A DNA stretch of 21,194 nucleotides from a virus. Both the position numbers and the translations under genes were made by a program. The notes under the pieces are model-generated. The model was given only the letters and a program-made list of their open reading frames with translations, was not told where the DNA came from and made no database searches. The stretch's first letter is position 1, and each line of letters starts with the position of its first letter. Shown here in pieces: positions 11,335-12,110 of this stretch. The stretch covers positions 1-21,194 of the IMG/VR virus record IMGVR_UViG_3300025282_000307; one strand, given 5' to 3'.

Positions 11335-11748
11335 AAATTGTTTCTCATATAGTAATAAGAGCTAGAACGTAAGTGTTTGATTAACAAAGGTTTCTAGTTC
11401 GTGTGAGTTTGAGTTGTAACCGCTTATACAGTCTAGCATTGTCGAGTTACCGCCTAACTCTTATTAGTATAGAGGGTGTAATGTTTCCGACATACAAATC
11501 ATGAGGCTCCTCTGTGCCTCCATCGGATAAGTAGCAGAGACTGGAGCATAACCTTTGAGCCAGGGATAAACCGCCGTTAGCGTGATCGTTGTTCGATCTG
11601 GGCATGGGCCAGCCTTGTTATTGGTGGGCGGATAACTTGCGACAGTACCATGTAGTCTCCGTAGGGGCCGATCACATACGGCTCATTAGAATAACTTTAT
11701 TTAATTGACAGATGTTGCAATAAAACAACACTATGAAGAAACGGTAGA
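11335..11748. other. 414-base non-coding region with many inverted repeats; candidate structured RNA or control region
   Basis: No convincing reading frame on either strand. The left part (11353-11467) is framed by TAATAAGAG and CTCTTATTA, a perfect 9-bp inverted repeat about 100 bases apart. It encloses CTAGAA/TTCTAG and GTAAC/GTTAC pairs. The right, GC-richer part has hairpins GAGGC/GCCTC (11503-11520), GATCG/CGATC with loop TTGTT (11584-11598) and GGGCCG/CGGCTC with one G-T pair (11665-11684), plus long-range GAGACT (11537-11542) with AGTCTC (11654-11659). It separates divergent genes and must hold their promoters. A minus-strand TATACT (11466-11471) lacks a matching -35. Confidence 0.55.
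11705..11734 (+). promoter_or_regulatory. possible sigma70 promoter for the small plus-strand genes
   Basis: A perfect -35 hexamer, TTGACA (11705-11710), is followed after 18 bases by CACTAT, which matches only three of six -10 positions. Transcription would start just before GTG 11749, giving a very short leader. The -35 is clear; the -10 is not. Confidence 0.28.
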
Positions 11749-11958
11749 GTGGCTAAGAAAAAGTTTGATCCCTGGAATGCAGAGGAATGGCTGTATACAG
11801 AATTTCTACAGGCTGCGGGGCCCATAAGTAGGGCCTGGGTAGAACGAGAATTCCAGAGGCGTAGGTATTTGCATGGGGGAAAGCCTGAGGTGCTAAATAT
11901 GTGCCTTCAGAGGCTTGGAATAAGGGATGAGGGGCTGATGTTGTGTCCTCCGACCTAG
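11749..11958 (+). CDS. small hypothetical protein, 69 aa
   Basis: GTG start at 11749, with the weak leader GGTA just upstream. The product is basic and aromatic (MAKKKFDPWNAEEWLYTEF, then ISRAWVEREFQRRRYLHGG), with two cysteines near the end. It is one of only two plus-strand genes between the two minus-strand blocks. The next gene starts inside it at 11943. I do not recognise the family. Confidence 0.6.
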   Translation: MAKKKFDPWNAEEWLYTEFLQAAGPISRAWVEREFQRRRYLHGGKPEVLNMCLQRLGIRDEGLMLCPPT

Positions 11959-12110
11959 ATAGGGCCTCCCAGAAGAACCACAGACGCTTGAGGCGTCAGA
12001 GAAACCTAGTCCAGAGGGATTCCTGGGGAAAAAAAGGAGGCGGCCCCATGAGAGACCGCTCCAAGTTTGCCAGAAAGCCTAAATATCCTGATACCAAGCA
12101 CTTAGACTAG
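11943..12110 (+). CDS. small, strongly basic protein, 55 aa
   Basis: GTG 11943 overlaps the end of the previous gene by 16 bases and the frame runs to TAG 12108. The product is about one third Arg/Lys (SQKNHRRLRRQRNLVQRDSW, KFARKPKYPDTKH). Short R/K-rich proteins with an RNH-like segment, overlapping a neighbour, are common in podoviruses and probably bind nucleic acid. The 3' end overlaps the convergent minus-strand gene by 32 bases. The frame has no other use in this stretch, but it is short. Confidence 0.5.
   Translation: MSSDLDRASQKNHRRLRRQRNLVQRDSWGKKGGGPMRDRSKFARKPKYPDTKHLD

Follow-up and report, generated by a model that had tools for sequence, protein, structure and literature searches.

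What does a phage maintain in a stretch of its genome where no gene is found? The window, by which we mean the whole stretch of DNA that was analysed, is the entire IMG/VR virus record IMGVR_UViG_3300025282_000307 (21,194 bases, ends not joined), and positions 11335-11748 lie in it between a leftward ORF (11334-10792) and a rightward 69-aa ORF (11749-11958). A sequence-only reading had described these positions as free of coding sequence, and this is borne out by ORF calls and by comparison among relatives, which revealed no conserved ORF. Coding on the minus strand was considered and rejected: short ORFs seen there in single members do not correspond among relatives, and indels come in lengths other than multiples of three.

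The same reading had proposed a candidate new phage RNA, distinct from tRNA and tmRNA, and had suggested a covariance search as a check. Such a search of the window against the 4227 families of Rfam gave no family at the gathering threshold; over the region, at E values up to 10, the best match was a yeast snoRNA at 14 bits against a gathering threshold of 35. Five relatives gave sub-threshold matches only, none of them over the RNA core, and the GOLLD and ROOL models matched neither the window nor these relatives. ARAGORN found no tRNA or tmRNA in the 21-kb window, in agreement with the proposal. A group I intron was likewise rejected, with no Rfam match and a locus that lies between divergently oriented genes. 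Literature on structured and ornate phage RNAs, which we covered incompletely, held no described RNA of this kind. The RNA is thus a member of none of the tested families and is previously undescribed.

Relatives were reached through the two genes downstream. Using the 69-aa protein as query, we obtained five contigs with the same region and a sixth that is partial, and the arginine-rich protein encoded next to it yielded nine more, every one of which carries the RNA (nhmmer E values from 1e-34 to 1e-46). All 15 loci with the arginine-rich protein carry the RNA. In the reverse direction, four scans of the viral collection with RNA patterns returned the known set of contigs and chance matches, and no RNA without the arginine-rich protein; pattern matches in genome contigs were judged by nhmmer to be due to chance. 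Homologues of the RNA occur in 14 IMG/VR contigs and, after near-duplicates are merged, amount to 13 distinct sequences including that of the window. DNA of three members and the peptide matched nothing in 50,697 isolate phage records, and the covariance model gave no significant match in three isolate records with related portals. Among 369 bacterial genomes of one class there was no match at an E value of 0.001, a weak result given that filters were strict and few candidates were scored per genome; four contigs with the RNA served as positive control. The carriers are related uncultured phages, with at least 13 distinct sequences of the RNA.

The case for a structured RNA is settled by comparison, because single-sequence folding is barely better than that of shuffled sequences (z of -1.5 for the folding energy, and about 0 for pieces, which is weak and uninformative evidence). 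Helices K, S2, C, D, E, F, G and H and a GAGC/GCUC hairpin were named on A6, a structure-blind MAFFT alignment; RNAalifold applied to A6 recovers K, the GAGC/GCUC hairpin, E and G, and adds helix I. Over the ten core helices, comprising 49 pairs, 95.7% of cells are paired, compared with 86.2 +/- 0.7% in shuffles and 31-45% when the structure is slid along the alignment, and 22 pairs are changed on both sides, against 9.1 in shuffles and 2-6 in slid versions. By parsimony on a tree built from unpaired columns, pairs switched 62 times from one standard type to another, and in 35 of these cases both bases changed, compared with 0 to 4 for slid structures. The lack of compensatory changes in related phages had been named as a result that would speak against an RNA; such changes are abundant, and the RNA reading is not refuted. 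At fixed alignment columns, 45 wobble cells are G-U and 12 are A-C, and since an A-C on the + strand is a G-U on the other, these counts favour the + strand; a fold of + strand DNA is also compatible with the wobble test. Taken from alignments, this evidence makes it nearly certain that a genuine structured RNA (or strand fold) is conserved here. The candidate RNA has thereby gained strong covariation, a + strand polarity and the lack of an Rfam match, but several of the stems first proposed differ from those that relatives conserve, and that description missed the greater part of the actual fold, a set of interlocking pseudoknots.

As kept in relatives, the structured RNA covers about 340 nt (11345-11685, + strand; 13 distinct sequences, alignments A1 and A6), with an uncertain 5' end. 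Comparative data place in it a core of about 205 nt (11480-11684, + strand) whose ten helices interlock in several pseudoknots and which also contains conserved unpaired stretches. The core begins with hairpin K (11480-11494), in which AAUGU (11480-84) pairs with ACAUA (11490-94) and one pair shows an A-U/G-C exchange. The loop of K joins a downstream strand in pseudoknot S2 (11486-11527; UCCG at 11486-89 with CGGA at 11524-27), with a compensatory change to UCUGA/UCAGA in L005. Hairpin GAGGC/GCCUC (the GAGC/GCUC hairpin, 11503-11520) is paired in 100% of cells, with changes from G-C to C-G, and its loop likewise joins a downstream strand in pseudoknot C (11510-11539; CUCUG at 11510-14 with CAGAG at 11535-39), which reads CUAUG/CAUAG in L008.

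Further helices make up the remainder of the core. Helix I (11540-11646), found independently by RNAalifold, combines ACUG (11540-43) with CAGU (11643-46) and then GCA (11546-48) with UGC (11638-40); at one of its positions as many as six types of pair occur. The long-range GAGACT/AGTCTC pairing suggested earlier is not conserved; its 5' strand pairs instead as ACTG (11540-11543) with CAGT (11643-11646). An inner hairpin from the same reading, CTAGAAC/GTTTCTAG, falls within an insertion confined to this phage and a near-identical copy. Helix D (11556-11685), UGAGCC at 11556-61 with GGCUCA at 11680-85, appears in relatives as GAGGACG/CGUCCUC and as AUGAGAGACG/CGUCUCUCAU. Helix E (11571-11631), CCGCC at 11571-75 with GGCGG at 11627-31, has all four Watson-Crick types at one pair and five double changes on the tree. 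Helix F (11582-11675), GUGAUCG at 11582-88 with CGAUCAC at 11669-75, is supported by covariation: its five counted pairs (GUGAU/AUCAC) are 100% paired, and three positions covary. D and F cross both I and E. Hairpin G (11600-11615, GGGC/GCCU) is another of the ten, and its loop forms pseudoknot H (11607-11626; GGCCA at 11607-11 with UGGUG at 11622-26) with a strand 3' to it that adjoins E; H covaries in relatives, where it reads GGUGA/UCAUC, AACCU/AGGUU or GGGCU/AGCUC. The 5' strand of helix F might alternatively pair with the strand just downstream of it (GAUCG/CGAUC, 11582-11596), which could be a conformational switch, and which is not feasible in every relative.

Upstream of the core lies stem A, probably an outer stem closing the 5' part of the RNA. 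The sequence-only reading had seen its central 9 bp, TAATAAGAG (11353-11361) with CTCTTATTA (11458-11466), and the stem is indeed present with its pairing kept in relatives; as RNA, the 5' arm reads UAAUAAGAG (+ strand, extending to 11348) and the 3' arm CUCUUAUUA (+ strand, extending to 11471). The arms hold 6 to 21 complementary bases in 12 genomes despite complete turnover of sequence (15 bp in L182 and L184, 20-21 bp in L186), and in 8 of the 12 no other genome's 3' arm beats a genome's own, with L006 weak. Inside the stem, a conserved motif, UAAGUNNUUGAU (11370-11382, + strand), occurs in each of the 12 genomes that include this part, some copies differing by a single base. The pairing itself is real, and an RNA helix and a pair of DNA sites are alike compatible with it; the core is independent of stem A.

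The second of these possibilities, which is compatible with the function that we favour below and concerns stem A alone, deserves to be taken seriously though we would not bet on it: the arms may be inverted DNA sites that serve the leftward gene and the RNA as promoters or operators facing outward and that coevolve with one phage regulator, so that the RNA would consist of the core only, from about 11470. A divergent control region, as the sequence-only reading had allowed, may be present at the outer stem. A TATAnTAT-like sequence occurs in both arms in most genomes, the Shine-Dalgarno sequence and start of the leftward gene adjoin the arm directly, the stem contains about as few G-U as A-C mismatches (4 vs 3), and an insert of about 560 nt leaves the arms matched. 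Against paired DNA sites, the match between the arms extends beyond the TATA part, and the distance between them ranges from about 80 to 600 nt. Moreover, the motif of the stem is virtually limited to its two arms in the ten contigs checked, by which its use as a general phage promoter was rejected.

The position of the RNA is fixed as well. All homologues lie at one place, between leftward replication genes and rightward terminase and portal genes. As far as the contigs reach, the common order consists of RNR, RusA-like, p9961, p10127, p10365 and p10792 in the leftward part, followed by the rightward RNA and arginine-rich gene, by variable and mostly leftward genes, and by rightward terS, terL and portal; wherever a contig is long enough, the RNA precedes the terS-terL-portal arm, with leftward genes between the RNA and the late genes. 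The large terminase subunit is 87-100% identical to that of the window. The RNA is better conserved than the adjoining gene: identity to the window is 57-68% for the RNA core, and for the neighbouring protein p10792 it falls to 33-44% in distant members.

A gene-free, strongly structured site at the border of replication and late genes might also serve as an origin, as the sequence-only reading had allowed, with a replication or packaging origin whose fold acts in single-stranded DNA or as a primer transcript. The wobble test is compatible with a fold of + strand DNA, but GC skew tracks the direction of the genes, with turning points near 5 and 15 kb and none at 11.4 kb, and so elaborate a set of pseudoknots is typical of RNA; the option is unsupported, and we regard it as very improbable.

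The 69-aa gene (11749-11958, + strand) occurs in the window's subclade only; its product is predicted to be winged-helix-like (AlphaFold pLDDT 86), with weak fold matches in the PDB. In three members (L181, L184 and L186) small leftward ORFs are inserted within the loop of stem A, and the RNA is separated from the peptide gene by a leftward ORF in L184, L185 and L187, as if the border of the RNA were a collector of accessory genes. Between the RNA and the next gene there is also a conserved hairpin, TGTTGT and ACAACA around an A-rich loop (about 11712-11730 in the window), which likewise lies 3' of the RNA in L005, L046, L182, L183, L184, L185, L186 and L188 and is missing from L006, L007 and L008; in some members it stands 3-4 nt upstream of the start codon of the next gene.

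The constant companion of the RNA is the arginine-rich gene (11943-12110, + strand), which encodes 55 aa in the window and 49-57 aa across loci. It accompanies the RNA in every contig, always downstream and on the same strand, often at a distance of about 50-65 nt, and is the first gene 3' of the RNA that all relatives have in common, with the 69-aa gene or a leftward ORF intervening in some. RNA and arginine-rich gene are linked both ways in the available data. The last bases of the 69-aa gene are also the first of the arginine-rich gene, read in a second frame (11943-11958), and the DNA there is strongly conserved (TGTCCTCCGACCTAGA). Within the arginine-rich gene is a minus-strand terminator-like site for the leftward genes (12059-12040), a GC-rich hairpin followed by a T-run, whose hairpin part GAGCGG/CCGCTC recurs in relatives and reads TCCGGG/CCCGGA in L046. 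The protein follows the pattern RRxRRQRNLxQRDSW, is predicted at low confidence to form a long N-terminal helix at residues 4-31 (pLDDT 68), and has no match in Pfam, NCBIfam or PADLOC. Without gaps it aligns with the boxB-binding peptide of P22 N (KARRRSRRQRNLTQRDS and KTRRHERRRKLAIERDT, respectively; the latter from PMC11480772), an alignment equalled by 4-23 of 2000 shuffles; the match is short and was selected post hoc, after the sequence had been seen, and we treat it as a lead. Resemblance to lambda N is much weaker and in most members not significant. The arginine-rich protein may be a partner of the RNA.

We tentatively favour, at rather less than even confidence, the explanation that these phages carry structured leader RNAs of a new family, each acting together with an RNA-binding peptide of its own. 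The RNA would be transcribed from the + strand at the start of the rightward arm and would fold on leaving RNA polymerase; the arginine-rich peptide would then bind it, the pair forming one unit that would most probably control rightward transcription in the manner of nut and N, either with polymerase reading on into the late genes for terminase and portal or with regulation of the peptide's own unit. We infer an action on rightward transcription because of the place of the RNA at the start of the rightward arm, the nutL-N-like gene order and the N-like motif. Counting against antitermination, we found no convincing + strand promoter or terminators near the RNA, and against nut/N, inspection of A1 and A6 by eye gave no boxA or boxB-like hairpin common to all sequences (CUCUUA, present in the 3' arm of stem A, is limited to some members of one subclade). 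The leftward genes that precede the late genes, and the leftward ORF between RNA and peptide gene in three members, likewise speak against this explanation, as do the missing Pfam, NCBIfam and PADLOC matches of the peptide.

Two close rivals of this explanation assign the RNA and the peptide different roles. The first, somewhat unlikely in our estimation, is a free-standing RNA or RNA-protein particle that acts in trans, resembling GOLLD or ROOL, with the peptide as a packaging or chaperone partner that does not act on its own transcript. The fold is suitably large and compact with its many pseudoknots, and the ORFs that separate the RNA from the peptide gene or occupy the stem A loop imply that a strict leader architecture is not kept; yet no terminator marks the 3' end, the peptide gene always follows on the same strand, often some 50-65 nt away, and there is no Rfam match. 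The second, a leader acting in cis on translation or termination of the peptide gene, either by autoregulation of the ribosomal-protein type or as a small-molecule riboswitch, strikes us as improbable. Its constant place upstream of the same gene, the conserved unpaired stretches of the core and the possible switch at the 5' strand of helix F would suit such a leader, but neither a terminator nor an alternative structure sequestering the ribosome-binding site was found, the 69-aa gene or a leftward ORF can intervene, and the local alternative to helix F is not possible in every sequence.

Returning to a leader RNA that works with its own peptide, it is conceivable, though we think it unlikely, that RNA polymerase, or some other host machine, is remodelled jointly by a peptide of about 50 residues and a compact, pseudoknotted RNA longer than 300 nt whose fold has not been seen before; the pair would then be an antiterminator or RNA-protein effector built on a new RNA fold. 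Because covariation backs the fold well, a partner gene of about 50 codons is always present and the place at the border of early and late genes is fixed, peptide binding and read-through are directly testable.

Large structured phage RNAs without known function are a known kind, exemplified by GOLLD, ROOL, manA and wcaG; few phage RNAs as complex as the present one are known, and most have no assigned function. GOLLD and ROOL, like it, are large, supported by covariation and pseudoknotted, and they are often found near tRNA islands. In contrast, ARAGORN found no tRNA in the 21-kb window, the Rfam models of both are unmatched, and our RNA is shorter than GOLLD, which exceeds 800 nt (PMC12286853). 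The manA and wcaG motifs of cyanophages and marine metagenomes are likewise structured and lie in potential 5' UTRs, but the genes downstream of them are largely metabolic (PMC2864571), whereas here that gene encodes an arginine-rich peptide, and their Rfam models gave no match. HK022 putRNA resembles our RNA in being a phage RNA in leader position, and ours could similarly act on RNA polymerase; put, however, consists of two stem-loops in about 70 nt and works without a dedicated protein (PMC9378689), in contrast to ten interlocking helices over about 205 nt. The lambdoid nut site consists of boxA and a 15-nt boxB hairpin, neither of which is conserved in our RNA of about 340 nt with its several pseudoknots, and the 49-57 aa peptide matches no Pfam model. 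The arrangement is nonetheless like that of P22 N and boxB, with an RNA element 5' of the gene for a small arginine-rich protein at the start of a transcription arm, and with a peptide that aligns ungapped with the boxB-binding helix of P22 N. Should the RNA prove to control late transcription, RNA-based antitermination would extend far past nut and put.
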